Notes under the pieces: model-generated
What the model was told of the DNA's origin: nothing
Databases searched by the model: none
What the model saw: the letters and a program-made list of their open reading frames with translations, nothing else
Shown here: piece after piece, positions 2,928 through 20,284 of the stretch
How the letters are laid out: each line of letters starts with the position of its first letter
Position numbering within the stretch: position 1 is the stretch's first letter
Translations under genes and position numbers: made by a program
NCBI RefSeq assembly: GCF_036046055.1
Contig: NZ_CP107939.1
Location: forward strand, 2,666,001-2,730,000
Origin: Nocardia sp. NBC_00403
GTDB taxonomy: Bacteria > Actinomycetota > Actinomycetes > Mycobacteriales > Mycobacteriaceae
Reading direction: 5' to 3'
Length of the DNA stretch: 64,000 bases

Positions 2928-2981
2928 GTCCACTCGTGGACGTCACACCAAGGTGTGAGAAACGCACACCCTCGGAGGGTG
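2928..2981. promoter_or_regulatory. Cluster of three palindromes upstream of the NRPS locus
   Basis: Within 54 bp lie GTCCAC-TC-GTGGAC (2928-2941), TCACACC-AA-GGTGTGA (2943-2958) and CACCCTC-G-GAGGGTG (2967-2981). GGTGTG can also pair with the CACACC at 2965-2970, so alternative hairpins are possible. The cluster sits between the divergent gene starting at 2893 and the first NRPS-locus gene at 3083. It is most simply read as operator DNA or an attenuating leader; the regulator is not identified. It does not match the IdeR iron-box consensus by eye. Confidence 0.55.
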
Positions 2982-3023
2982 GAGGCCAGTACTGGGGTTC
3001 CTGTCGAAATGAGGCTCCGGCGA

Positions 3024-3127
3024 CGAGATTTATAGGCATACCGAAGACGCCACGGACCAAGATTTTCGAGAGAGAGACGAACATGACCACGCTGATCGAA
3101 TCGCCTGCTGAAACAGTTGTCCAGCTG
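3024..3127 (+). repeat. 5' leader, copy 1 of a duplicated NRPS leader
   Basis: Carries CGAGAT followed by ACCGAAGACGCCAC, with CCGAAG starting at 3041, exactly 42 nt before the ATG at 3083. The same arrangement recurs at 3719-3821. Similarity continues past the start codon: MTTLIESPAETVVQL here and MCKPVESSVSAVVSM in copy 2. Confidence 0.6.
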
Positions 3128-3547
3128 CGGCCGAGCGCTGTGTCCGCGCATGCCGTGAACGATCCGACCGCCGTCGCCGTGTCCGCCGCCGACTGCGAGC
3201 TCACCTATCGTGAGCTCGACCTCTGGTCGAACCGTCTGGCCCGGCTGCTGCTTGCCCGCGGCGCAGGCCCTGGTGTCCGCGTCGCGGTGGCCGTCACCCC
3301 CGCGGTCGAGGCCACCGTGACCGAGTGGGCCATCGCCAAGACCGGCGCAGTCGCCGTCGCGGTCGCTCCCGGAACGGCCGTCCACGGCGCCACCCTCGGT
3401 GTGACGACCAAGGCGCTGCGCGGCGAGCTCGCCGATTCGCTCAACTGGCTCATGCTCGACGACCGCTCGACCCTGGTGCATTACATGACCGGTTCCGACG
3501 CGCCCATTACCGACGCGGACCGCGGCATCGTGCTCGAGATCGCTTGA
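3083..3547 (+). CDS. Stand-alone truncated adenylation-domain protein (N-terminal fragment only)
   Basis: A 154-residue protein homologous to the N-terminal part of an NRPS adenylation domain. [20 protein letters not shown] matches the A1 core and AIAKTGAVAVAVAPG the A2 region. It then skips the stretch after A2, resumes with LNWLMLDDRSTLVHYMTGSD and APITDADRG, and stops just before the A3 P-loop. It therefore lacks ATP- and substrate-binding motifs, thiolation domain and C-terminal subdomain. Its closest match in the window is the A2 domain of the adjoining NRPS. Start chosen at ATG 3083 because the duplicated leader ends there; an upstream GTG at 2936 is open but runs through the palindromes. 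It cannot activate an amino acid by itself; it is either a degenerate module or a small accessory protein. Confidence 0.65.
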   Translation: MTTLIESPAETVVQLRPSAVSAHAVNDPTAVAVSAADCELTYRELDLWSNRLARLLLARGAGPGVRVAVAVTPAVEATVTEWAIAKTGAVAVAVAPGTAVHGATLGVTTKALRGELADSLNWLMLDDRSTLVHYMTGSDAPITDADRGIVLEIA

Positions 3548-3704: not shown

Positions 3705-3842
3705 ATGCCCGATGGTGCCGAGATCACCAACATTCCGAAGACGCCACCTGTCGACACCATCGAGGGGAAAATAGCGATGTGCAAGCCGGTCGAATCATCC
3801 GTATCAGCAGTCGTTTCGATGTGGCCTGGCCTGGTCGGCTGA
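3705..3842 (+). CDS. Possible 45-residue ORF in the NRPS leader
   Basis: ATG 3705 is preceded by a purine-rich GGGGAGGG at 3685-3692. The frame reads MPDGAEITNIPKTPPVDTIE and continues through ATG 3777 to a TGA at 3840-3842. Residues around IPKTPxxxxIE match the translation of the first leader (IPKTPRTKIFE). It could be a leader peptide, a remnant of a second truncated adenylation gene, or untranslated leader. Confidence 0.25.
   Translation: MPDGAEITNIPKTPPVDTIEGKIAMCKPVESSVSAVVSMWPGLVG
3719..3821 (+). repeat. 5' leader, copy 2 of a duplicated NRPS leader
   Basis: CGAGAT at 3719-3724 and TTCCGAAGACGCCAC, with CCGAAG beginning at 3735, exactly 42 nt before an ATG at 3777. Spacing and motif are the same as in copy 1. 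The reading frame after this ATG stops at 3842, and the NRPS begins 76 bp further on. Confidence 0.6.
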
Positions 3843-3917: not shown

Positions 3918-6900
3918 ATGCAGCAGCAATCCCGCTCGCCCATCGTGGCGAGCAACGGTTTGCCCGCGGGTGCGTTCGCGCTGTCCGCGGCCCAACGCGG
4001 AATCTGGTTCGCCCAGCATTTTGCTGGTGACAACCCGATTTCCATCGCCCAGTACGTCGAATTCGTCGGATCGGTCGACGTCGACATACTGGCAGATTCG
4101 GCGCGTCGGGCCGGGCGCGAGTTCGGTACCGGCTATCTGCGCCTGATCGAGGTCGACGACGCCCCGTTCCAGGTCATCGACACCACCTTGGACGACCGCA
4201 CCACCATCCACGACCTGCGCGCCGAACCCGATCCGGCGGCGGCGGCGCAGGCGTGGATGCGGGCGGAGTACACCGCGCCGCTCGACCTGCTGCGCGATCG
4301 GCTGTGCGAGGTCACGATGCTGCGCCTCGCCGACGACCACTGGTACTGGTATTCGCGAATCCATCACATCGTGCTCGACGGCGTCGGTGCGATCACCATG
4401 CTGCAGCGCACGATGGATCTCTACAACGCGGCCATCGAGGGGCAGCAGCCACCAGAAGGCAAGGCCGAGGACCTGCGCAAGATCGTCGACGCGGACGTGG
4501 CCTATCGCGACTCGGGGCGTTTCGAGGCCGACCGGCAGTACTGGCGTGAACACCTGGCCGGGATGGCGGAGCCGGTGAACCTTGCGGGCCGCTTCGCCGC
4601 GGTCGACGCGCACCCGCGGCTGGTCAGCGGCGCACTGTCGTCCGAAACCGCCGAACTGCTCGATGCCGTCGCGAAGGCGAGTTCGTCGAGCATGGCACCG
4701 GTGATCGTGGCCGCGTTCGCCGCGTATCTCGCCGCCATGACCGGTGCGCCCGAGGTGGCGCTGAGTCTGCCGGTATCCGCCCGCACGACCGCGTCGCTGC
4801 GGCGCTCGGGCGGCATGGTCGCCAATGTCGTGCCGCTGCGCCTCACCCTGGATCCGACCGCGACGGTGGGCGAGCTGATCCGGGCGACGCAGAGCGAGCT
4901 CACCGGCGCGCTGCGGCGACCGCGCTATCGGCAGGAAGACATCGTCCGCGATCTCGGCTGGGCGCTGGACGAGGCGGCCTCGTTCGGTCCGACGGTGAAC
5001 CTGATGATGATGGACTCCCGGATCCGCCTCGGGTCGGTCACCGGTCGCCTGCATGTGCTCACCTCCGGGATGATCGAAGACCTGTTCGTCAACGTGTATC
5101 CCGGCGTGGCGGGCGAGCGCACCCACATCGATTTCCAGGCCAACCCGAATCTCTACAGTGACACCGAGCTGGTCGCACACCACGGCCGTTTCGGCGCTTT
5201 CCTGTCCCGCTTCCTCGCAGCGGGCGCGGATGCGGCGCTGTCTACGGTGCAGGTCGTTTCCGAGGCCGAGCAGGCCGAGCTGGTTCCCGCGTATGGTCCG
5301 AACGGGGTTGCGCCGCAAACGCTTCCGGACATCCTGGCCGCGGGCGCTGCTATCGAACCCGGCGCGGTCGCCATCCGGGCGGGCGAGGTCGCGATGACCT
5401 ACCGTGAGCTCGACGAACACTCGAATAGGTTGGCCCGCCTGCTGATCGCGGCGGGTGCGGGCCCGGAGCGCACGGTGGCGATCTCGATTCCGCGCTCGCT
5501 GGATTCCGTGGTCGGGTTGTGGGCGGTGGCCAAGACCGGTGCGGCGTTCGTGCCGATCGACCCGAACTATCCCGCGGACCGTATCCAGCACATGGTCGGC
5601 GACAGCGGGATCGTCGCCGGTCTCACCGTCGCCGCGGCACGGGAATCGCTGCCGGACCGGGTGATCTGGTTGATCATGGACGACGACGCGACCGATCGCA
5701 TGGCCGCGATGCGGGATTCGTCGCCGATCACCGATGCGGAGCGCACCGCGCCCGTGCTGCTCGACCAGACCGCCTACGTCATCTACACCTCGGGATCGAC
5801 GGGCCTGCCCAAGGGAGTCATGGTGTCGCATCGTGGGCTGGCGAATCTGGCTACCGGCTCCGGCTCCAGCTTCGGTGTGACGGCTGATTCCGTTGTGGCG
5901 CATGCTGTCTCGCCGAGTTTCGATATTTCAGTGGAGGAACTGCTCGTCGCCTTCGCCGTCGGCGCGACGGTCGCGGTGGTGCCGCCGTCGGCATACGCGG
6001 GCGAGGATATGGCGCAGGTGCTGCGCACGCACGGCGTTACCCATCTGAATGTGACTCCCGCCGTGGTGGGTTCGCTCGATCCCGCGACCCTGCCCGCGCT
6101 GCGCACCGTCATCGTCGGCGGCGACGCCTGCCCGCCGGAGTTGGTGGCGAAGTGGTCGGATCGCAGACTGTTGAACGGGTACGGGCCCACCGAAACCACT
6201 GTCACCACGACCCTGAGCGCACCGATGGCGCCGGACGCACCCGTCACGATCGGCAGCCTGATGCGTGGCGTCTCGGCCGTCGTGCTCGATCCCTGGTTGC
6301 GGCCGGTGGCCACCGGCACGATCGGGGAGCTGTATTTGGCAGGCGACGGCGTCGCCCGTGGCTACCACCAGCGCAACGGGCTCACCGCGAGCCGATTCGT
6401 CGCCAACCCGTACGAGCCGGGCGCTCGCATGTACCGCACCGGAGATCTGGCGCGCTGGCATCGGCGTGCGGGGCGGCTCGAGCTGGACTATGCGGGGCGC
6501 AGCGACTTCCAGGTGAAGGTGCGCGGTTTCCGCATCGAACTCGGTGAGGTGGACGCCGCGCTGCAGCGCCACCCCGACATCGACTTCACCCTCACCATCG
6601 GCGCGACGACACCGTCCGGAGCCACCGCGCTGGTGTCGTATGTGCTGGCGAAGCCGGGCACGCGGGTGCACCCCGAGGAATTGAAAACATTTGTCGGCGA
6701 GACACTTCCGGCCCACATGGTGCCGACTGTCATCATGCTGCTCGACAGCTTGCCGCTCACCCCGGTCGGCAAGGTGGATCGACGGGCGCTGCCCGCTCCG
6801 GATTTCACCGCTCGCAGAGCTGTGAAGCGCGCGCCGAGCACACCGAACGAAGAAGTTCTCGCACCGCTGTTCGCCGAGGTGCTCGGGTTGGACGAGGTGG

Positions 6901-9900
6901 GTGTCGACGAGAACTTCTTCGCGCTCGGCGGCGACAGCATCGTGTCCATTCAGCTGGTGTCACGGGCACGGGCGGCAGGTCTGTCGTTCAGCGCGCGAGA
7001 TGTGTTCGAGCGCAAGACCGTTGCCGGACTGGCCGCCGTCGCCACCGACGCGGCCGCACATCAGGTGCGCGAACTGCCCGGTGGCGGTGTCGGCCCGGTC
7101 GAGCTCACGCCGATCGTGCACGCGATGCTGCAGCACGGCGAGCCGTGGCAGCGGTTCAGTCAGGCCGTACTGGTCGGCCTGCCCCGCGGCGTCGAGCGAG
7201 CACAGCTGACCAAGGCCCTGGCGACGCTCATCGATCACCACGATGTGCTACGCAGCACCCTGCGACAATCGGCGGCGGGCTGGGAATGGGTTGTCGGCGC
7301 GGCTGGTTCGGTCGATGCCGACAACCTCATCGACGTCGTCGCCGCCGGTTCGGATCCGACCGAGACCTACGAGCGCGAGTTGCAGCGCGCGGCCGATCTG
7401 CTCGATCCGGCCGCGGGCGTCGTGGCGCGCGTGGTACTGATCGAGTCACCGGACGTGGATCCGCGGCTGTGGCTGGTGCTGCACCATCTTGTGGTCGACG
7501 GGGTGTCGTGGCGAATTCTGTTGCCGGACTTGGTCACTGCCATGATCGGCGGGAAGCTGGAGCCGGTCGGCACGTCGATGCGGCGCTGGGCGCACGGCCA
7601 GGTCGAGGTCGCGGTCGGCCGAGCCGGTGAGCTCCCGGTGTGGCAGCGGATTCTGGCCACTCCCGATCAGGAACTCGGTGCCCGCGAGCTGGATCCAGCG
7701 CTGGACGTAGTCGCGACCATGGCGGATGTGCGCACGACGGTACCGGCCGAGGTGGCGAGTGTCGTGCTCGAACTGGTGCCGGACCGATTCCACTGCGGCG
7801 CCGACGACGCGCTGCTCACCGCGCTCGCCATGGCCGTATGCCGCTGGCGTCCGCGTACGGCTGTGCTGCTCACGCTGGAGGGCCACGGGCGCGAGGAGGC
7901 CGTGCTGCCGCACGCCGCCGTCGACCGCACCGTTGGCTGGTTCACCAGTGTCTATCCGGTCGCGATCGACCTGACCGGCATCGACCTCGACGACGCCTTC
8001 GCGGGCGGCCCCGCCGCGGGGGCCGCCATAAAGGCCGCAAAGGAACAGTTGCGCGCGATTCCGGACAAGGGCGTCGGCTACGGCATGCTGCGCTATCTGA
8101 ATCCGGAAACCGCTGCAGCCCTGACAGATACCGGGACCCCACAGATCAGCTTCAACTATCTCGGACGCGCGGCAACCGGAGGCGCGGGCGCAACCTGGCA
8201 GCCGGAGCGATTCGCCGCGACCAACGACGACCGCACGCCCTTGGCGGCTGTCGTCGACATCAACGCCATCATGGGCGACACCGAGCTCGAGGCGACCTGG
8301 GGCTACGCGTCACGGATTCTCGACGAGGCACAGGTGCGTGAGCTCGCCGAGCTCTGGGCGGACGCCCTGCGCGCCCTGGCCGCGCATGCGCGGACCGCAG
8401 GTGCGGGCGGCCACACACCGTCGGATTTCGACCTCGTCGGGGTGACCGCAGGCCAGCTGGACGGCTGGGAGCAGAGCTACCCGAATCTGACCGACGTGTG
8501 GCCGCTCTCGCCACTGCAGTACGGCCTACTCTTCCACGCCTGGTACGACTCCGACACCGCCGACGGATACACCGTGCAGACCAGACTCGCCCTCGCCGGT
8601 CGCGTCGACGCGGCCCGTTTGCGTTCGGCCGCACAGGCATTGGTCGAACGGCACGAGAATCTGCGGGTCGCCTATGTGGATACCGACGACGGTCCACGCC
8701 AGCTCGTGCTCGCGACCGCCGAGATACGGTGGTACGACCTGGATCTGAGCGCGATCACCGACAACGCCGAACGAGAACGCGAACTGGAACGCCTCATCGA
8801 GGTCGACGCGAGCACTCGCTTCGACCTCACCCGTCCGCCGTTGCTGCGCTTCACCCTCGTCAGGACCGCCGCCGAGGACTACACGCTGGTGATGACGAAT
8901 CACCACCTGGTGCTCGACGGGTGGTCGACCCCGCTGCTGGTGCGCGAGCTACTGGCGATCTACATCACCGCCGGCGCGGCAGGGCAGCTCCCCGCGCTGC
9001 CGCCCGCCCCCTCCTACCGAGAGTTCCTGTCCTGGCTCGACAGACAGGACAGCGCGGCCTCGATCGCGGCGTGGCAGCAGTCGCTGGCCGGGATCGACGC
9101 CCCGACGCGCGCGGTGCCGACACTGGCAGGGATCGAATCCACCGAATCCGGCATGGTTTCGGTGGATCTGCCCGCCGATTCCGTGGCGCGGCTGGAGAAG
9201 TCAGCGCGCGAGGCGGGCGCGACGGTCAACACCTCGGTGCAGGTCGCGTGGGCGCTGCTGCTCGCGATGGTGACCGGCCGGAGCGATGTGGTGTTCGGCG
9301 GCACGGTCTCCGGCCGGCCGCCGCAGCTGGCGGGCGTCGAGGACATGGTCGGACTGTTCATCAACACGCTGCCGGTGCGGGTGCGCCTCGAGCCGGGCGA
9401 GCGGGTCGTCGATCTGCTGGCTCGCGTCCAGTCCGAGCAGGCGCGGCTGCTGGATCACCAGCATGTCGGGCTCGCCGCGATCCATCAGGCCGTGGGGCTT
9501 GCCGAACTGTTCGACACGCTCACCGTTTTCGAGTCCTACCCGATCGATCGGGAGGTGCTGTCGCAGTCGCTGGATATCGCGGGCATGCGGGTGCTCGATG
9601 TGACGGGGACCGACGCGACGCCGTATCCGTTGAACCTCATGGTCATTCCGCTGCCCGGCGGGCCTGCGGGCGACAGCATGCGGATCACCGTGAAGTTCAT
9701 GGCCGACCAGCTGGCGGCGCCCGCGGCGCGCCGGTTGCTCGACCGCTTTGTGCTGCTGCTGACACAGATCGCCGAAAAGCCGCAGCAGGCGGTGGCACTG
9801 GTGCAGCACTGCGATCGCGACGAACGCGCTGCCTTGCTGCCGGTCCGCGGGGCCGCCCCGATGCCGCTGCGCACGCTGCCCGACATCCTGACCTCCGGTG

Positions 9901-12900
9901 CGGCCATCGCCCCTGATGCCACTGCTGTCAGTGCCGGCGGCGTGTCCATGACCTACCGCGAACTCGATGCCTGGTCGAACCGATTCGCCAGGGTACTGCT
10001 GCGTCGCGGTGTCGGCCCCGAAGTGTTCGTCGTGCTCGCGCTCACCCGCTCGGTGGAGTCGGTGGTCGCGGTGTGGGCGCTGGCCAAGACCGGCGCGGCC
10101 TTCGCGCCATTGGACCCGAGCTATCCGCCGGAGCGGATCGAGCACATCCTCACCGACTCCAAAGCGCCGATCGGCGTGACGGTCTGCGCGACCGGCGACA
10201 CCTTGCCCGGCACCATCGACTGGCTGCTGCTGGACGATCTCAACACCATCCGCAAGGTGATGACGGTTTCCGACGCGCCCATCACCGACGCGGATCGTGG
10301 CCGCGCCATCGACATCGAGCAGATCGCCTACCTGATCTACACCTCGGGTTCCACCGGGAAGCCGAAGGCTGTGTTGCTGAGCCATCGCGGCCTGGCGAAC
10401 CTGGTGACGACCCAGAGCAATTCGCTCGATCTCGACCCGACCGCACGCGTATTGCAGGTCGCTTCACCGAGTTTCGACGCATCGGTGTTCGAGCTGCTGA
10501 TGGCGCACGCAACCGGCGCGAAGCTGGTGCTGTCACCGCCGGATGTGTACGGCGGCAGTGCGCTCGAGCACTTGATCCGCGACGAAAAGATCACCCATGC
10601 GGTCATCACGCCGTCGGTGCTCGCCACCATGGATCCCAGCGACCTCATCGAGCTGCGCATGCTGTCGGTGGCCGGTGAGGCGATCAGTCCGGAGCTGACG
10701 GCCCAGTGGGCACCGGGTCGCCGACTGGTGAACCTGTACGGCCCAACGGAATTCAGCATCTGGGCGACAGGACCGAGCGAGCTTCGAATCGGCGAACCGG
10801 TCACCATCGGCGGACCGGTTCAGGGCGCGGCGGTGATGGTGCTCGACCCATGGCTGCGTCCCGTCCCGGTCGGCATCACCGGTGAGCTGTACCTGGCGGG
10901 GCCGGCCCTGGCGCGCGGCTACTTCAATCGGTTCTCGATGACCGCGGGACGATTCGTCGCCAACCCGTACGGTGCGCCGGGGGAGCGGATGTACCGCACC
11001 GGTGACATGGTGCGATGGGTGCCGGATAAGCCTGGTGAGCTGGACTACCAGGGCCGCAGCGACTTCCAGGTGAAGATTCGCGGCCTGCGTATCGAACTCG
11101 GCGAGATCGATGCGGTGCTCACCGCCGACGAACGGGTGGAATACGCGGCGACGATCGGCCGCACCGGACCGGCGGGAGAGACCGTGCTGGTGTCCTATGT
11201 GGTTCCCGTCGCCGGGGTGGAGCTGGACACCGAGCAGTTGCGCAACCAGATCGCCACCACCCTGCCCGGGTATATGGTCCCCGGCTATCTCATCGCACTC
11301 GACGAGGTTCCGCTGACCCCGGTGGGCAAGCTGGACCGCAACGCGCTGCCGGTGCCCGATTTCTCGGTCTCGCGACGGGCCTATCTCGCGCCGCGCACAC
11401 CCGTCGAGCAGGCCGTCGCGGAGGTGTTCGCCGACGTGCTCGACACCGAGCGGGTCAGCATCGACGAATCGTTCTTCGAGCTCGGCGGCAACTCACTGAG
11501 CGCAACCCGGGTCGTCGCCAGGATCAATGCGGCACTCGGCGCGCGGATTGCACTGCGCGACCTCTTCGATGCCCCGACCATCGCCCAGCTTTCCGCGCGG
11601 ATCGTGCCCGCCGCCGATGGCGATCGGAGCAGGTTCGTGCTCGCGCCGCGGATCCGGCCGGACCGGATTCCGTTGTCGCCCGCGCAACAGCGCATGTGGG
11701 TGCTCAATCAGTTGGATCCCGGTTCACCCGCCTACAACATCGCGGTGGCGCTGCGGCTCACCGGCACGCTCGATATCGATGCCTTGCGGGTGGCGGTGGC
11801 CGATGTCGTCGACCGGCACGAAAGTCTGCGCACCGTGTATCCCGCCGACGCGGAGGGGCCGCGGCAGGTGGTTTTGCGTGGTGCGGCAGCGCTGCCCGCG
11901 CTCACCGTGGTAGACACCGAAGACGGTGTGCCGCTGCATAATCGGTTCGCCGAGCTGACCGGTACCGGATTCGACATCGGCACCGCGCCGCCGCTGCGGG
12001 TTGGATTGCTGCGTGTCGCGCCCGAGGTCCTCGTGGTGGTCCTCGTGGTCCAACACATCAGCGCCGATGGTTCGTCGATGGCGCCGCTGGCCGGTGACCT
12101 GATGACCGCCTATGCCGCGGGCACGGCGGGACCGCCACCGGCCGTGCAGTATGCCGACTACGCGCTCTGGCACCGAGAGCTGCTCGGTGACGAGCGCGAT
12201 CCCGAGTCGATGGCCGCGCGCCAGATCGGTTACTGGACCGGCGCGCTGACCGGCGCACCCGACCTGCTCGAACTCCCCGCCGACCGACCGCGGCCCGCCG
12301 TGCAGACAATGCACAGCGCCGATGTGGATTTCGAGATCGACGCGGCACTGCATCGGGCCATGGGCGAACTCGCGGCCACGGCCGACGTCAGCCTGTTCAT
12401 GGTTGTGCACGCCGCGCTCGCGGTGCTGCTCGCCCGCCTCGGCGGCACCGACGACGTAGTGATCGGCACAGCGATCGCCGGTCGCGGCGAGGCGGCCCTC
12501 GACGGGCTGGTCGGCATGTTCGTCAACACCCTTGCCCTGCGCACATCGGTCGATCCGAGCACGGGCTTCCGTGAGTTCCTCGCGACGGTGCGCTCGACCG
12601 ACCTCGACGCGTTCGGCAACGCCGATGTGCCGTTCGAACGGCTCGTCCAGGTGCTGAATCCGACGCGGTCGACGGCGCACCACCCCATCTTCCAGGTATC
12701 GCTGTCGCTACAGAACTTCGTCGAGCCGACCCTCGAATTGCCCGGTCTGCGCATCGAGGTCGAGAACCTCGACCGGGACGCCGCGCAGTTCGACCTGACT
12801 CTCGATCTGCGAGAACATCTCTCGGGGACCGAACCGGCCGGGCTGAGCGGCGTGCTGTCCTACGCGACGGACCTGTTCGACGCGGCCACCGCGGCGACAC

Positions 12901-15900
12901 TGGTGGCCCGGTGGCAGCGCGTGCTGAACGCGGTGGTCGCCGACAGTGACCAGGCAATCTCCGATATCGATGTGCTCGAGGAATCCGAGCGCGAGACACT
13001 GGTTCCCGTGCGCGGGCCCGCCGGCGGCGGGACCATGACGCTCGCGCAGGTCCTGGCTGCGTCGGCGTCGACGCATCCGGAGCGACCTGCGCTCGTCGTC
13101 GACGGGCGCACCACTACCTACCGCGCGCTGGACGCCCGCGCCAACAAGCTCGCTCGAGTCCTGATCGGTGCCGGTGCCGGGCCGGAAACCGTGGTCGCGC
13201 TCGGTCTCACCCGCGGGGCCGAACTGCTCACCGGCATGTGGGCGGCGGCCAAGGCCGGTGCTGCTTTCCTGCCTGTCGATCCGAACTACCCGGCCGAGCG
13301 CATCGAGCACATGCTCACCGATTCCGGCGCGGTGCTCGGACTCACCGTGGCCGCACATCGAGCCCAATTGCCGGACGGCGCACAGTGGCTGGTACTCGAC
13401 GATGCCGAGTTCACCGCGCGCATCCAGCCGATGGGCGAGGATGCCGTGCGGGCCGACGAGCTGCGTAGCCCGGTTCATCTGGACCAACCCGCATGGATGA
13501 TCTACACATCAGGGTCGACCGGAACACCGAAAGGTGTCTCGGTGTCGCATCGCGGCATCGCCGATCTGGTTGCGGCGCAACAGGAACAGCTCGCGCTCGA
13601 CGAGAATTCGCGAGTCCTACAGGTGGCGTCACCGAGTTTCGACGCCTCGGTGTTCGAGGCGATGATGGCGTTCGGCTCGGGCAGTGCGTCGGTGGTCGCG
13701 CCGCCGGATGTTTTCGGCGGCATACCGCTTGCCGAGCTGATCGGCGCCGAGCAAGTGACGCATATGGTGATCACCCCGTCGGCGCTGGCAACGATGGACC
13801 CCGCGGCGGTGCCGAGCGTGCAGCTGCTCGCGGTGGTCGGTGAGGCAGTCGGCGCGGAACTGGTCGAGCGGTGGGCGCAGGGGCGCACCATGGTGAACCT
13901 CTATGGACCCACCGAATCCACCATCTGGACAACGAGTTCCACCGCAATGGCCGTGGGTGCTCCGGTGACCATCGGCCGCCCGATTCGTGGTTCGGCGGTC
14001 CTGGTGCTCGACGATCGGCTACGCCCGGTCCCGGTCGGGGTCGCGGGCGAGCTGTACATTGCGGGATCCGCGCTGGCCAGGGGCTACCACGGCAGACCGG
14101 AGCTGAACGCAACCCGGTTCGTCGCCGATCCGTTCGGCGCGCCGGGCGAGCGGATATACCGCACCGGTGACCTCGTGCGGTGGACGCGCGACCGGCAGCT
14201 GGAGTACATCGGGCGGACCGATTTCCAGGTCAAGGTGCGCGGGCAGCGTATCGAGCTCGGCGAGATCGATGCGGTGCTCGGGCGCGCCGACGGTGTGGAA
14301 TTCGCGGTGACGCTCGGTGTGCGCGGGCCCGCGGGCTCGACGGCACTGGCAGCCTATGTGGTTGCGGCGGCCGACCACACGCTCGACCTCGCGCAACTGC
14401 GCGCCTTCGCTGCGGAAACCTTGCCCGCGTACATGGTTCCTGCCGCGTTCGTCGTCCTCGACGAGATCCCGATCAACGCGGTCGGCAAGCTCGATCGCCG
14501 CGCGTTGCCCGATCCGGTGTTCGACGATGTCGAGACCGAATACCGCGCGCCGCAAACACCTTCCGAGGAGCGGCTCGCGGAGATCTTTGCGGAGCTGCTC
14601 GGCCGCGAAAAGGTGGGCGTGCACGATTCGTTCTTCGCTCTCGGTGGCGACAGCATTCTCGCGATCCAACTGGTGTCGCGGGCGCGGATGCACGGCCTGG
14701 TGCTCACACCGCTGCAAATATTCGAGCACCGCACCGTCGAAGCGCTTGCGGCGCTCGCCGACGCCGCAGGCGAGGTGGTGGTTCTGGAGGAGCTGCCCGG
14801 CGGCGGCGTGGGTGCGCTGCCGCTGACGCCGATCGTGCGATACATGATCGAGCGGGGCGGGAACTTCGACCGGTTCGCCCAGACCGCGGTCCTCGAGCTG
14901 CCGGTCGGCATCGAGCGCGCGCAACTCGTCGCGACGCTCGCGGCCGTCGTCGACCGGCACGACATGCTGCGCACCAGGCTGTCTCAGGACGCCACGGCCG
15001 AATGGCAGGTGCAGGTCGGCGAGCCCGGCTCGATCGAGGTGGACGCGCTCGTGCACCGCATCGAGTTCGACGCCGATGCCGACACCGTGGATGTCCGCGA
15101 ATACGCCATCGCGGAAGTGGATTCCGCGCTGAACCGACTGGACCCGGCCAACGGTGTCGTCCTGCAGTTGATCTGGCTCGATCCCGTCGGCGACGCGGGT
15201 GCCCGGCGCAGGCCCGGTCGGCTGATCGTCGTCGCGCACCACCTCGTCGTGGATGGTGTGTCATGGCGAATCCTGGTGCCGGACTTGATCGCCGCATGGG
15301 CCCAGGTCTCCACCGGCGGCACCCCGATCCTCGCCGAAACCGGAACTTCCATGCGTCGTTGGTCGCACGCGCTGACCGAGGAGGCACACCGGGAGGCTCG
15401 CACGGCCGAGCTCACCTACTGGCGTGACGTCGTCGACGGGCCCGACCCGCTGATCGGCTCACGCGAGCTCGACCCGGCCATCGATCAGGCGCACACCATG
15501 CGGATGGTCGAGTTCGATGTGTCCGCGGAGGCGACCACCGGACTGCTGACGACACTGCCCGCACTCTTCCAGGGGGGCGCCGACGACGCTTTGCTCGCCA
15601 CGTTGGCCTTGGCGCTCATGCGCTGGCGGGGGCGCGCGGAATTCGAGGGTGACGCCGGAATTTCGCCGACGGACTCCGCCGGTGCGAGCAGCTCTGCGCT
15701 CATCCGGCTCGAAGGACACGGTCGTCGAGAGGAGGTGGTTCCCGGCGCCGATCTTTCGCGGACTGTCGGATGGTTCACCAGCATCTACCCGGTGCGATTG
15801 GATCTCGCCGAGATCGACCTCGACGCCGCGTTGTCCGGTGGCGCGGCGATGGGTTCGGCGATCCGCGTGGTGAAGCACCAGTTGCGTGCGATACCGGACA

Positions 15901-17111
15901 AGGGCATCGGTTTCGGACTGCTGCGTTATCTGAACTCCGCTGCGGCGGAGCAACTGCCGAAACGGCTGCCGGGGCGGGTCGGCTTCAACTATCTCGGCCG
16001 CTACGCTACGGCGAGTATTCCGGCCGGGTTGGAAGGGCTCGGCTGGCTGCCGACCGACGAGTTCGGCGACCTGCACGCCGCCGAGCATCCGGACGTGCCG
16101 TTGATGTCCGAGATCGACATCAACGCTGTCGTTCTCGGCGATCGACTGCACGTGAGCATCGGCTACCCCGAAACCCTGTTGGACCGCGCTGATGTCGAGG
16201 AGCTGGCGCGGATATGGACCGAGGCCCTCTGCGCGGCAGCGGAATTCGCGCAGACGCCGGAGGCGCAGCAGGCGGCCGCCGAGGAGGCTGCCCTTGCCGC
16301 GCAACCGGTCGCCGAGGCCGGGCCGGGCGGACTCGGACTCGACGTGCTGCTGCCGATCCGGCTCGGCGGGGACGAACCGGCATTGTTCTGCATCCACCCG
16401 TCGTCCGGAATGGCATGGACCTATCTCGGGCTGGCGGACGCACTGGCGCCGGGCCGTCCGATCTACGGCCTGCAGGCTCCGGATCTCAGTGGCGCACCGT
16501 CGGTTCGGTCCATCGAGGAGTTCGCCGACCACTACGTCGCCGAGATCCGCCGGGTGCAACCCGACGGCCCCTACCACCTGCTCGGCTGGTCTTTCGGTGG
16601 GCTCATCGCGCAGGCGATCGCCACGAAGCTGGAGCAGGCCGGCGCATCGGTCGGGGTGCTGGCGTTGCTGGATGCCGACACCGCCGACATCGACGGTGAC
16701 AGCATCGAGCGGCTCACCGCGGGCGCCTTCGTCAACACCTTCGGCGCGGTCTTCGGTATCCACGATGTTCCCGCCGAGGCGACCGCACAGGAGGCGGCGA
16801 ATCTCATCCGCGATCGGATGGGTGGCGTCTCGATCATCGGTGCGGACACCCTCGAACGAATGGCAGGCTCCTACAACGCGTCGGCGCGCACCAGGACCGG
16901 CTATCAGCGCCCGACCTACCACGGCGACGTGCTGTATTTCCACGCCACTGTGGACACTTCGGACATTTTCGGTCCGGATGGCTGGCGACCGTATGTCACC
17001 GGCGAGATCACCACCGTCGATGTCGACGTGACCCATGACGAACTGACCGCACCACACGCGCTGGCAACCATCGCCCGCGTGCTCGACGAGCAGCTGGGAG
17101 GCAGGCGATGA
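3918..17111 (+). CDS. Three-module non-ribosomal peptide synthetase, C-A-T-E / C-A-T / C-A-T-E-TE
   Basis: A 4,397-residue synthetase from ATG 3918, preceded by AGGAA at 3908-3912; an in-frame TTG at 3870 is less likely. By residue: C1 (HHIVLDG, 149), A1 ([11 protein letters not shown], 623), T1 (GGDSI, Ser 1007), E1 (HHLVVDG, 1189, with [15 protein letters not shown]), C2 (HHLVLDG, 1662), A2 (P-loop 2141), T2 (GGNSL, Ser 2526), C3 (QHISADG, 2712, first His replaced by Gln), A3 (P-loop 3196), T3 (GGDSI, Ser 3579), E2 (HHLVVDG, 3774), and thioesterase (GWSFGG, Ser 4225). Both epimerase-coupled carriers have the GGDS form, the other GGNS, as expected. All three A domains keep the A10 lysine (GKVD/GKLD). 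C1 opens the first module with no upstream carrier, consistent with a starter C that acylates residue 1. Predicted product D-aa1/aa2/D-aa3, possibly N-acylated. No MbtH-like or acyl-ligase gene is nearby. Confidence 0.95.
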
Positions 17112-18082
17112 GTTCCGACACCGGAGTCCTCGTCGAGGGCATCGAGAAATCCTTCGGCGCTGTGCAGGCATTGCGCGGTATCGATTTCACGGCCGCCGAG
17201 GGGGAGGTGCTCGGCATCCTCGGACCCAACGGCGCGGGCAAGACCACTATGGTCAACATCCTGTCGACGCTGATCGTCCCGGACAAAGGCCGAGCCATGG
17301 TCGCGGGGCACGACGTCGTCGCCGATCCCGCGGCAGTGCGCAAATCCATCATGCTGACCGGGCAATTCGCCGCACTCGACGACATGCTCAGCGGCTACGA
17401 GAACCTCGTGCTGTTCGGCAGGTTGATGGGGCTGCGCAAGGGGGCCGCCAAGGCGCGCGCGGATGAGCTGCTCACCGAATTCGATCTGGTGGGCGCTGCG
17501 AGTCGCCGAGTCGGCACCTATTCGGGCGGCATGCGCAGGCGCATCGATATTGCCTGCGGTCTGGTGGTCCGACCTGATGTCGTGTTCCTCGACGAGCCGA
17601 CCACCGGCCTGGATCCGCGCAGCAGACAAGGAGTATGGGACCTGGTGTCCAGCTTCAAGAAGAACGGCATCACCACCCTGCTGACCACCCAGTATCTGGA
17701 GGAAGCCGACGCACTCTGCGATCGGATCATCGTCATCGACCACGGGGTGGTGATCGCGCACGGCACCGCCGACGAGCTGAAATCGCGGACCGGCGGTAGC
17801 TACTGCGAGGTGGTGCCGCTGGATCTCAAGGATGTGCCCGCCATCGTGGCGGCGCTCGGATCACTGCTGCCGGAAGAGACTCGCACCGCACTGACACCCG
17901 ACTCGGACCGCATCGCCATCCCGGCGGTCGACGGCGCCAAGACCCTCGCGGAGGCGCTGCGACGGTTGGACGGCGCCGGGATCGAATTGGTCGACATCGC
18001 GCTGCGCAGGCCGTCGCTCGACGATGTATTCCTGCAGCTGACCGGTCATCTCGCCTCGGTAGACGGTGAGGCGGGGTCATGA
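17108..18082 (+). CDS. DrrA-type ABC transporter ATP-binding protein
   Basis: ATPase of a daunorubicin-resistance-type exporter. The ATG at 17108 overlaps the NRPS stop by 4 bp (ATGA), so it is coupled to the synthetase. 324 residues. Walker [10 protein letters not shown] is at 39-47, followed by a Q-loop, signature YSGGMRRR, Walker [14 protein letters not shown] and switch His region ([15 protein letters not shown]). The C-terminal extension with [15 protein letters not shown] is typical of DrrA/CcmA-like exporters. With the two permeases downstream it should export the NRPS product; this is inferred from coupling and from similar NRPS/Drr loci in actinobacteria. Confidence 0.93.
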
Positions 18083-18897
18083 CGGCGGGTACCTGGCTGA
18101 CCTCAGCCCGCGCGACCCCGGCCACCGTGCAGCAGTGGTGGGTGCTCACCTCGCGGTTGATCGTGCCATCGGTCAAGACCGGCGAAGTGCTGGCGTCGAT
18201 TCTCGCGCCCGCGGCCTTCACCGCCAGCTTCTACATCCCGTTGAAGACGGTGATGACTTTCTCCGGCAATGGCTTCAGCAGCTACGCGCAGTACATGATG
18301 CCGCTGGTGATCCTGCAGGCGGCGGCCTTCACGGCCATCTCGGCCGCATTCCGCGCCGCCTCCGACGCTGTCGCGGGGTTGGACCGCCGGTTCGGCTCGA
18401 TGCCCATTTGGCCGCTGGTACCCGTCGCGGCGCGCATGTCCGGCAATTTCTTTCGACTACTCCTCGCCTTGGCCGCCGCGGTGGTGTGTGGGCATGTCAT
18501 CGGCTTCCGTTTCCGTCTGGACACCGTCCACACGCTCGGTTTCCTGGCGTTCTCCTTGCTCATCGGCATCGCGTTCACGCTCGGCGCGGATGTCATCGGG
18601 ACGGTGTCGAAGAGCCCCGAGACCGTCACGCAGGCGCTGGTGTTGCCGCCGTTGATCTTCGGCATGCTGTCGACGGGGCTGGCTCCGGCGAGCCAATTTC
18701 CGCACTGGGTGCAGTGGTTCGTGCGCAACCAGCCGGTCTCGCAGTTCGCCATCGCACTGCGGGCGCTGGCCGGCGACACCAAAGGCAACGCGGGTGAGGT
18801 GACCTGGTCGCTGATGGGCCCACCACTGTTGTGGGCGTTGGGAATCCTGGTCGTGTGTATTCCGATCGCCGTGCGGCTGAGCTCCAGGAGGGCGTGA
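18079..18897 (+). CDS. DrrB-type ABC-2 transporter permease
   Basis: 272 residues, coupled to the ATPase gene by a 4-bp ATGA overlap at 18079. About six hydrophobic segments in ABC-2 arrangement: an amphipathic N-terminus, a first TM near the residues VLASILAPAAFTASFYIPLK, and a long conserved stretch with LPPLIFGMLSTGLAPASQFP and WVQWFVRNQPVSQF, the hallmark loop of Drr/ABC-2 permeases. Ends one base into the next start. Forms the membrane channel with the next gene. Confidence 0.9.
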   Translation: MTAGTWLTSARATPATVQQWWVLTSRLIVPSVKTGEVLASILAPAAFTASFYIPLKTVMTFSGNGFSSYAQYMMPLVILQAAAFTAISAAFRAASDAVAGLDRRFGSMPIWPLVPVAARMSGNFFRLLLALAAAVVCGHVIGFRFRLDTVHTLGFLAFSLLIGIAFTLGADVIGTVSKSPETVTQALVLPPLIFGMLSTGLAPASQFPHWVQWFVRNQPVSQFAIALRALAGDTKGNAGEVTWSLMGPPLLWALGILVVCIPIAVRLSSRRA

Positions 18898-19706
18898 TGA
18901 CACTGTTTGCCACGCCCAGCGTGCGCGGCTCCGAGACATCACCGGTGTCGCTGGTGCGGCACACGATTCTGCAGACACAGCGACTGCTGCTGCGTTCGGT
19001 GCGCCATCCGGTTGCCCTGCTCGAGACGCTGATCATCCCGTGTCTGCTGCTGTTCATGCTCGACACCGTGATCGGCGGTCAGATCGAGAAGTTCACCGGT
19101 GGCGATGGGCTCTACGGCTCGGTGCCGATGGTCGCGATCGTCGGCGCGCTATCCGGCGCGGTGGCCAGCGGCGTGATGCTCGGGCGCGAACGCGACGCTG
19201 GTCTGCTCGCCCGGTTCTGGGTGCTGCCGGTCCACCGCGCCTCCGGCCTGATGGCCAGGATCCTCGCCGAGGGTTGCCGCATCCTCGCCGGAACCGTCAT
19301 CGTCGTCGTTGTCGGGCATCTGCTCGGGTTCCGCTTCCAGCAGGGTGTGCTCGCGGCGCTGGTGTTCCTGTTGGTGCCGGTGCTCTTCGGCCTCGCCTTC
19401 GCCACAATCGTCACCGCCATCGCGGTCTACACCGCGAAAGCGACTCTCGTCGAAGGCATTACGATACTGAGCTCGCTGCTGATGTTCTTCAGCACCGGCT
19501 TCGTCCCGCTCGTTGCCTATCCGGAGTGGATTCAGCCGGTGGTGCGCAACCAGCCGCTCTCGGTCGCGGTCGACGCGATGCGGGCGCTTGCGCTCGGTGG
19601 CCCGCTCGCCAGGCCGCTGACCATGACGATCATCTGGTCGCTCGGCGCGATCATCGTGTTCGCCGTTCCTGCCGCGGTGGGCTATCGACGCGCCAGCCGG
19701 AGATAG
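18897..19706 (+). CDS. DrrB/DrrC-type ABC-2 transporter permease (second)
   Basis: 269 residues from ATG 18897, which shares its A with the preceding stop (TGATG) and follows a CCAGGAGGG ribosome-binding site. It has the same fold as the previous gene: a TM near LLETLIIPCLLLFMLDTVIG, a cytosolic GRERDAGLLARFWVLPVHR loop, and SSLLMFFSTGFVPLVAYPEW then IQPVVRNQPLSVAVDAMRAL. Two non-identical permeases next to one ATPase mirror the drrABC layout. Last gene of the NRPS operon; the toxin gene on the other strand ends 18 bp away. Confidence 0.9.
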   Translation: MTLFATPSVRGSETSPVSLVRHTILQTQRLLLRSVRHPVALLETLIIPCLLLFMLDTVIGGQIEKFTGGDGLYGSVPMVAIVGALSGAVASGVMLGRERDAGLLARFWVLPVHRASGLMARILAEGCRILAGTVIVVVVGHLLGFRFQQGVLAALVFLLVPVLFGLAFATIVTAIAVYTAKATLVEGITILSSLLMFFSTGFVPLVAYPEWIQPVVRNQPLSVAVDAMRALALGGPLARPLTMTIIWSLGAIIVFAVPAAVGYRRASRR

Positions 19707-19724: not shown

Positions 19725-20093
19725 TCATTTGATCCATTCTTCCAGCAGCGTAGCAATCTCGGGCACTTCCATATCGCCTTGCGCAATCGCATTCATGGCT
19801 TTTTCCTGGGCCTCCGGGAATGCCTTGACATGCTCGCCGTTGATCCGCAACATAATCGCCGCCGCGAGGAATGCGGTCCTCTTGTTGCCATCAACGAGAG
19901 CGTGATTCCGTGCAATCGAATGCAGCAGTGCCGCCGCCTTGTCGATGAGACGTGGATACGCCTCGTGCCCGAACACCGTGGTGCGGGGACGTTCCGCCGA
20001 GGCAGCCAACAAGCCTGCGTCGCGTACGGCGGCATGTCCGCCGTTCACTGCGGTAGCAATGGCCAGTAGTTCCTCGAGGGTGAGATATTTCAT
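19725..20093 (-). CDS. doc: Doc-type (Fic fold) toxin, death-on-curing family
   Basis: 122 residues, typical for Doc, the short Fic-fold toxin that inactivates elongation factor Tu by phosphorylation in phage P1. Motif HALVDGNKRT near residues 63-72 matches the Doc/Fic core HxFx(D/N)xNKRT, with Leu in place of Phe. YPRLIDKAAALLHSI and the C-terminal IATLLEEWI helix also fit. Its ATG overlaps the upstream antitoxin gene by 4 bp. The target and activity here are inferred from the family. Confidence 0.9.
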   Translation of the reverse strand: MKYLTLEELLAIATAVNGGHAAVRDAGLLAASAERPRTTVFGHEAYPRLIDKAAALLHSIARNHALVDGNKRTAFLAAAIMLRINGEHVKAFPEAQEKAMNAIAQGDMEVPEIATLLEEWIK

Positions 20094-20284
20094 GCCAGCC
20101 GCTCGAGCAGTTCGGCGTGCTCGGTCATAGTTTCGGCGAGTAGTGCGTCGAAGGCTTCGGCGCGGCGTGTCAGGTGAAGGTGGATCGCCTCTTGGGCAAT
20201 CTCTTGCTTGCTACGGCCTTCCCGCTGAGCCTGCTCGGTGAGTGCCCGGTCATCATCGTCATTGAGTCTGAGTGTCATAGCCAT
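20090..20284 (-). CDS. Antitoxin of the Doc pair, ribbon-helix-helix type
   Basis: 64 residues when started at the ATG whose first base is 20284 (MAMTLRLNDDDDRALTEQAQ), then REGRSKQEIAQEAIHLHLTR. The pattern of a short beta strand (MTLRLND) and two helices is that of a CopG/Arc-like DNA-binding antitoxin. The C-terminal tail (FDALLAETMTEHAELLERLA) would bind Doc. An alternative start at 20311 would run through the operator palindrome, so the shorter form is preferred. First gene of the two-gene operon. Confidence 0.85.
   Translation of the reverse strand: MAMTLRLNDDDDRALTEQAQREGRSKQEIAQEAIHLHLTRRAEAFDALLAETMTEHAELLERLA

Follow-up and report, generated by a model that had tools for sequence, protein, structure and literature searches.

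Genes and signals of the locus

We analysed a 64,000-nucleotide window of the genome of Nocardia sp. NBC_00403 (contig NZ_CP107939.1, positions 2,666,001 to 2,730,000; a single-contig genome of 8.7 Mb) that carries a trimodular nonribosomal peptide synthetase (NRPS), a DrrABC-type transporter behind it and, in front of it, a small gene that we call mini-A. Positions are those of the window, and every feature of the cluster lies on its forward (+) strand. The NRPS is a single open reading frame (ORF) of 4397 aa (3918-17111). It is preceded by the ribosome site GCAGGAAT and ordered Cs-A-T-E / C-A-T / C-A-T-E-TE, where C, A, T, E and TE are condensation, adenylation, carrier, epimerization and thioesterase domains and Cs is a starter C domain. 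Pfam matches in this ORF number five for Condensation, three each for AMP-binding and PP-binding, and one for Thioesterase. Three overlapping genes follow, reaching 19706: a DrrA-type ATPase (17108-18082), a DrrB-type permease (18079-18897) and a DrrC-type permease with an ATG start at 18897 (18897-19706). The NRPS stop and the drrA start share 17108-17111, drrA and drrB share 18079-18082, and drrB overlaps drrC at 18897. Ahead of the NRPS lie a conserved cis block of three tight palindromes (2943-3006), a 17-bp element in the mini-A leader (3037-3053), mini-A itself (3083-3547) and a second leader (3731-3842) that holds a repeat of the 17-mer and a 21-codon ORF (3777-3842).

A preliminary description of this DNA had proposed a tri-modular NRPS with a terminal E before the TE, coupled to a DrrABC exporter, and Pfam, the domain motifs, the gene overlaps and NCBIfam all bear it out. 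It placed the cluster at 3918-19706. The right border stands: downstream of drrC, on the opposite strand, are a Fic/ribbon-helix-helix (RHH) gene pair and a short-chain dehydrogenase/reductase gene, which put the border there. The left border was incomplete, since mini-A and the promoter block are part of the cluster. Hence, the earlier interpretation was right in part and missed the unusual part of the locus.

Does the transporter belong to a known family? DrrA exceeds the NCBIfam cut-off for the DrrA subfamily ATPase (TIGR01188; 381.8 versus 312.45 bits), and DrrC, searched as a longer reading starting at 18831, exceeds those of TIGR01248 (166.9 versus 165.65) and TIGR00025 (164.8 versus 146.9). 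DrrA and DrrC thus resemble known DrrABC exporters at the level of the cut-offs, whereas DrrB falls slightly below that of TIGR00025 (146.5 versus 146.9). For comparison we used a first sample of 40 orthologous loci, 28 with a prior free-standing mini-A match and 12 without, all chosen by a strong DrrB; relatives' loci are coded L and genus genomes G, G000 being the source genome. DrrA, DrrB and DrrC occurred jointly in 40/40 loci and the NRPS in 39 of these. Because DrrB was the basis of selection, only the co-occurrence of DrrA and DrrC is informative.

The genes rph and rdgB lie upstream of the locus in the window. We rejected the idea of a conserved genomic address: this rph-rdgB flank was found in 1 of the 40 loci, and the surroundings vary. 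The Fic/DOC protein and its ribbon-helix-helix partner directly after drrC (19731-20284) are likely a toxin-antitoxin pair. An Rfam scan of window positions 1-25000 at gathering thresholds gave no matches.

Mini-A, a fragment of an adenylation domain

The mini-A product is 154 aa long; it aligns with the N-terminal ~130 residues of A domains and ends ahead of core A3. It is therefore without the ATP loop, the specificity pocket and the C-terminal subdomain; the P-loop and cores A3 to A10 that mark a catalytic A domain were not found in it. Judged by its sequence, mini-A is A-domain-derived and cannot be classed as an adenylating enzyme. An AlphaFold model built on 54 sequences reached a pLDDT of 80.3 and a pTM of 0.74, and the top Foldseek matches of the model were NRPS A domains (8hlk, TMq 0.68; 8www, 0.72; 1amu, 0.65). 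According to the model, mini-A would form an alpha/beta unit of the A-domain core that is complete in itself.

In a tree of 121 A-domain N-termini, in which 14 of 38 mini-A rows were used, these 14 formed one clade (support 100); its neighbours, in a larger group with support 84, were A2 of the NRPS that mini-A accompanies and another A domain of the source genome. Mini-A proteins range from 131 to 155 aa, typically carry the motif DDRSTLxRYLxxSDAP and are shortened around the A-domain YPxxRI motif. Another A-like fragment, a 280-aa open frame (L109, around G000:C1:7820349-7820720), lacks the mini-A motif by eye.

By analogy, mini-A may be likened to the MbtH-like proteins, which are also small proteins encoded beside an NRPS. 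Unlike them, it is homologous to the A domain itself and not to MbtH. It gave no match to PF03621, and the PF03621 matches of the genome, at 79881 and 1838606 only, are both outside this locus. The literature searched on truncated A domains, judged by title and the start of the abstract, contained no free-standing A-domain fragment of this kind.

How tightly is mini-A bound to the NRPS? In the first sample it stood directly upstream of the NRPS in 37/40 loci, plus two on closer inspection, and so preceded the NRPS in 39/39 NRPS-bearing loci, including 11 of the 12 without a prior match. The fortieth locus, L088, has kept DrrABC, and NRPS and mini-A are both absent. Relatives of the size of mini-A number 76 in the database; the 61 that bear an organism name are without exception Nocardia, as are the closest named DrrB loci. 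A mini-A profile matched 116 of 148 genus genomes. Eight matches were weak (7.6e-29 to 1.1e-33): that in G063 was listed as an A domain of an NRPS, and the seven others, which were unlisted, were taken for the same. Without these eight, 108 genomes remain. A DrrB of at least 370 bits was present in 105 of the 148. Both genes occurred in 103 genomes, mini-A alone in five (G009, G045, G049, G116 and G120), DrrB alone in two (G047 and G063) and neither in 38; as the genomes are related, the counts do not represent independent events.

An open mini-A copy without an adjoining NRPS occurs in four genomes (L207-L210, in G040, G100, G107 and G049), where it is always flanked by a DrrBC-like pair on one side and a THAP4-type heme-binding gene on the other. 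Three of the four carry another mini-A elsewhere. G049 has neither another profile match nor a strong DrrB; it would thus seem to carry mini-A but not this NRPS, although ~1 kb further on the contig ends.

Is mini-A a functional protein at all? It might be a dying remnant, or a mere translated leader of the NRPS transcript. Over 15 close pairs, changes per first, second and third codon position were 0.098, 0.073 and 0.173, third positions changing most. The resulting ratio of 0.49 speaks for weaker constraint than on the N-terminus of A2 (0.20 over 117 pairs), and pairwise dN/dS is a rough guide only, since dS is unreliable at this GC content. The variable length of mini-A, its absence from G063 and the short second leader ORF, with its similar start, before the NRPS also lean toward a remnant or leader. 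No in-frame stop interrupts any of the 38 coding sequences; since the antisense frames are free of stops too, in 37 of 38 cases, an open frame counts for little at this high GC. In eleven hand-picked close pairs the mini-A gaps were multiples of three, bar two 1-nt gaps in one pair, while 9/11 spacers of the same pairs had gaps that were not. When all 137 pairs with 75-99.5% identity are counted, multiples of three make up only 305 of 790 mini-A gaps, slightly more than one in three; for the spacer the figure is 136 of 777, from 184 pairs. The full count favours coding less than the hand-picked pairs do, and the gap evidence for coding is therefore moderate. The conserved, mini-A-specific motif DDRSTLxRYL, the confidently predicted fold and the unbroken linkage to the NRPS in the first sample argue for a protein, and the free copies without an adjoining NRPS count against a role as leader only. 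We consider a functionless remnant or leader somewhat unlikely.

On these sequence comparisons we favour mini-A as a non-catalytic accessory protein, most likely acting in trans on the assembly line. A fuller version of this proposal, which we hold only tentatively and at less than even odds, is that mini-A is a self-folded pseudo-adenylation fragment, copied from the second A domain of its own synthetase and provided with its own promoter region. In trans it would serve as a chaperone, a decoy or an allosteric partner, and some Nocardia would retain it as a gene in its own right. It would then be a new kind of NRPS helper.

The promoter block consists of the palindromes CACACCAAGGTGTG, CACCCTCGGAGGGTG and CCAGTACTGG, centred at 2950.5, 2974 and 2990.5 (spacings of 23.5 and 16.5 bp), and ends in GGGGTTCCTGTCG. 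An alignment of 38 upstream regions shows the triple palindrome conserved, usually before mini-A. The last 20 bp of the block occur exactly once in the 8.7-Mb genome, and the next best site has 2 mismatches. A wider regulon was rejected: at up to 3 mismatches we counted 10 forward and 4 reverse sites, versus 9 and 7 for a reversed-pattern control. Downstream of the block, the 17-bp element CATACCGAAGACGCCAC at 3037-3053 is found again ahead of the NRPS, at 3731-3747, with a single change. The 21-codon ORF behind this repeat starts much like the N-termini of mini-A, and 8 of 37 further spacers that we scanned hold ORFs with such a start. Read-through of the mini-A stop into a joint mini-A-NRPS protein was also rejected, the NRPS frame being open at the mini-A stop in 9/38 loci, about what chance would give.

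Domains and predicted product of the assembly line

The domain motifs of C, E, T and TE are present in the window NRPS, the first His of C3 excepted. Motifs, codes and the acyl gate were compared over 39 rows, the window and 38 orthologues, with L098 (wrong strand) dropped. The carrier domains T1, T2 and T3 lie at 6837-7052, 11394-11612 and 14553-14768. E1 (7080-8399) has HHLVVDG, EGHGR and NYLGR intact, and its HHxxxDG motif is kept in 39/39 rows. The terminal epimerase E2 (14799-16256) is likewise intact in the window; six listed classes of its motif cover 34 of 40 rows, and in 12 of these DG is replaced by DS or DA, while the two His and the Asp are retained.

The TE (16350-17102) shows GWSFGG together with the Asp and the His. 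It had been singled out as having to accept a D-aminoacyl terminus. The E-TE order is indeed there, but it is less unusual than stated. ACV synthetase, given in the relevant part of PMC7147772 as AT-CAT-CATETe, yields the linear tripeptide (L,L,D)-ACV. It too is trimodular, ends in A-T-E-TE and makes a tripeptide with a C-terminal D-residue; it differs in beginning with A-T rather than a starter C and in having no E in module 1, and the likeness is one of domain order. Might the TE cyclize or oligomerize instead, giving a cyclic peptide or a larger one and not a linear acyl tripeptide?

Type I TE domains do both, and a basic side chain at position 1 could serve as a nucleophile. However, the nearest precedent by domain order gives a linear product, and nothing in the locus indicates a ring. 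We judge such an outcome unlikely.

The first C domain had been read as implying an N-acyl starter. To type the C domains, 90 C and E domains were parsed from the NRPS stretches of the source genome, and the 88 longer than 300 aa were placed in a FastTree tree. C1 (3975-5255) fell within a 9-row clade (support 100) whose every member is the first domain of its protein; five other first-position rows, one cut by the contig end, lay outside it. C2 (8484-9794) belonged to a 12-row clade (support 99), six of them after an E, and groups as a D-C-L type. C3 (11661-12965) sat in a 49-row set (support 98), mostly domains after a T, as an LCL type. E1 and E2 joined a 13-row E clade (support 98), 4 rows of which the parsing rule had labelled C, as they are without EGHG. 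C1 is N-terminal, has no carrier domain upstream and is separate from the LCL and DCL clades; hence, it is not an ordinary LCL domain.

The nearest PDB structures agree with the tree in making C1 a starter domain: RzmA Cs (7c1k, E 2.7e-68), aligned over the full length, and then CDA Cs (4jn3, E 3.4e-50), aligned over most of it, with HHxxxDG present and the gate position readable. The active motif, HHIVLDG in the window, is intact in 39/39 rows. The residue after HHxxxDGxG sets acyl length in the enzymes treated in the pertinent section of PMC7804268, with Arg for C2, Met for C6 and Ala for C8. The gate residue of C1 is Ala in 39/39 rows, as in HolA (C8) and not Arg as in RzmA (C2) or Met as in CDA (C6). 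At RzmA positions 136, 138 and 143 the window C1 has Ser, Ile and Leu; position 143 is Leu in 39/39 rows, and position 138 is Ile, Met, Phe or Leu, not Tyr. By the size rule, which was derived on other enzymes, C1 is predicted to take a medium or long acyl-CoA. That C1 is inert, or uses a carrier-bound starter in place of acyl-CoA, we think improbable: the nine members of its clade do all come from one genome, but its motif is intact in every row, its best matches are Cs domains solved with bound acyl-CoA, and the locus holds no additional carrier protein.

C3 of the window reads QHISADG, with Gln for the first His and the second His intact. No other row has this change: in 40 rows the motif was HHISADG 37 times, HHVSADG once, QHISADG once (the window) and HHVGAEG once, the last taken as the wrong-strand L098.

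Alignment reproduced the specificity residues reported earlier for the three A domains. A1 (5322-6815) has the code DIENIGGVTK in the window and DIEN[IV]GG[VI]TK in 39/39 rows; two more distant relatives have DIED. A2 (9876-11366), the nearest kin of mini-A, has DAFVSALIWK, and DAFV[SA]ALIWK in 33/39 rows. A3 (13041-14522) has DAFVAVLIWK, shared with one other row, whereas 32/39 rows have DAFVAALIWK. Acidic and amide residues at the A1 code positions suggest, from the chemistry of such pockets, a basic substrate. The ornithine-like pocket proposed for A1 agrees with this, and the A1 residue is probably of the ornithine, lysine, arginine or citrulline type. The codes of A2 and A3 are similar, as had been noted; A2 probably loads a hydrophobic residue and A3 a similar one. 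The A codes are near-constant over 39 rows, so that one core peptide seems to be common to most of the genus. We consider it very improbable that the product is a hydroxamate siderophore based on N-hydroxy-ornithine, even though the A1 code resembles the D-x-E-N of some hydroxy-ornithine codes: no hydroxylase or acetyltransferase gene occurs from mini-A to the Fic/RHH pair, likely nocobactin genes (so assigned from domain order) lie elsewhere in the genome, at 2164-2180 kb, and the promoter block is, by eye, unlike an iron box.

Variant loci and the proposed GCF 5 product

A locus of this kind is already on record. Mannle et al. 2020 (PMC7413640) describe, as gene cluster family (GCF) 5, a trimodular NRPS whose first and last modules contain E; it occurs in 75 of 101 Nocardia genomes, and its peptide could not be predicted. 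Our locus fits GCF 5 by architecture (a single trimodular NRPS gene with E in the same two modules), by genus and by frequency, the strong DrrB in 105/148 genomes agreeing with presence in most Nocardia. The preliminary description had found no matching known product; the literature searched offers none, but the locus, as a likely member of GCF 5, had been described, though not characterized. The section on GCF 5 in that paper contains no product, starter-C typing, transporter or mini-A. To it the present analysis adds these parts of the locus and variants without E domains or without DrrABC. We conclude that the NRPS is ordinary in kind and already catalogued without a product, and that mini-A is the new part.

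Among the variants, L196-L198 are trimodular but contain no E, and both mini-A and DrrABC are present; L199, with mini-A, is dimodular. We searched the variant loci for a degenerate form of the last 20 bp of the block, within 700 bp and allowing up to 4 changes. It was present with one change in L194, L195, L204-L206, L207 and L210, with two in L209 and with four in L208; within these limits it was not found in L196-L199 or L088. In G063 (L195) the block is retained ahead of the NRPS despite the loss of mini-A. L088 (15900-16700 and 16530-19122), in G047, has kept DrrABC beside rph-rdgB, with NRPS, mini-A and promoter block gone; a leader piece and the NRPS tail are still present.

The source genome has a second copy of the same NRPS type (L108, 3236-16636; G000:C1:4591735-4605135). 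It has near-identical A codes and a dead E1 (HQLVIDD, GNGR), lies near an IS481-type integrase ORF and shows neither mini-A nor DrrABC alongside. At the contig edge, at approximately G000:C1:3-46727, an open frame of 15575 codons encodes a very large NRPS with 14 A domains.

The order of genes and domains, the types of the domains, the integrity of their motifs, the conservation of the codes and the linkage of mini-A can all be read directly in the DNA. From them together we propose, with a probability of about 0.72, that the locus is the GCF 5 assembly line for an exported acyl-D-X1-L-X2-D-X3, led by the non-catalytic mini-A. The length of the acyl chain, the residues, the mode of release, the export and whatever role mini-A has are inferred from these features as follows. 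The Cs domain would take a medium or long acyl-CoA directly and acylate the probably basic residue loaded by A1, which E1 would epimerize. C2 would link this D-residue to a probably hydrophobic residue from A2, and C3 would add a similar one from A3. E2 would then epimerize the last residue, and the TE would release acyl-D-X1-L-X2-D-X3, most simply by hydrolysis, for export by DrrABC. Mini-A, made from its conserved promoter region, would most likely be an accessory of the synthetase.

Several observations weigh against this proposal. The code readings depend on general ideas of pocket chemistry, and the A-domain code strings were not found in the literature searched. No product of this locus was found there either, including work on Nocardia lipotripeptides and Nocardia DrrABC, and the passages of PMC12153302 that were searched name no such cluster. 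The clade of C1 is defined from one genome only. G063 has the NRPS and DrrABC without mini-A, which is therefore not indispensable. In L194 and L204-L206 the assembly line is otherwise the same, but its terminal E lacks the motifs, and the stretch retrieved shows no match to DrrABC. An active terminal E and DrrABC are therefore not universal; the two losses go together and are possibly one event in one clade. Finally, G047 retains DrrABC though the NRPS is lost, and the transporter may do more than export this peptide.

Most species of Nocardia, a genus that comprises soil bacteria and opportunistic pathogens, keep the cluster, and its near-constant codes probably stand for one common core molecule that is unreported in the papers searched. 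The codes, the acyl gate and the stereochemistry give a concrete target to search for. If mini-A does act on the synthetase, it would represent a regulatory or helper route unlike that of MbtH and a possible tool for assembly-line expression.

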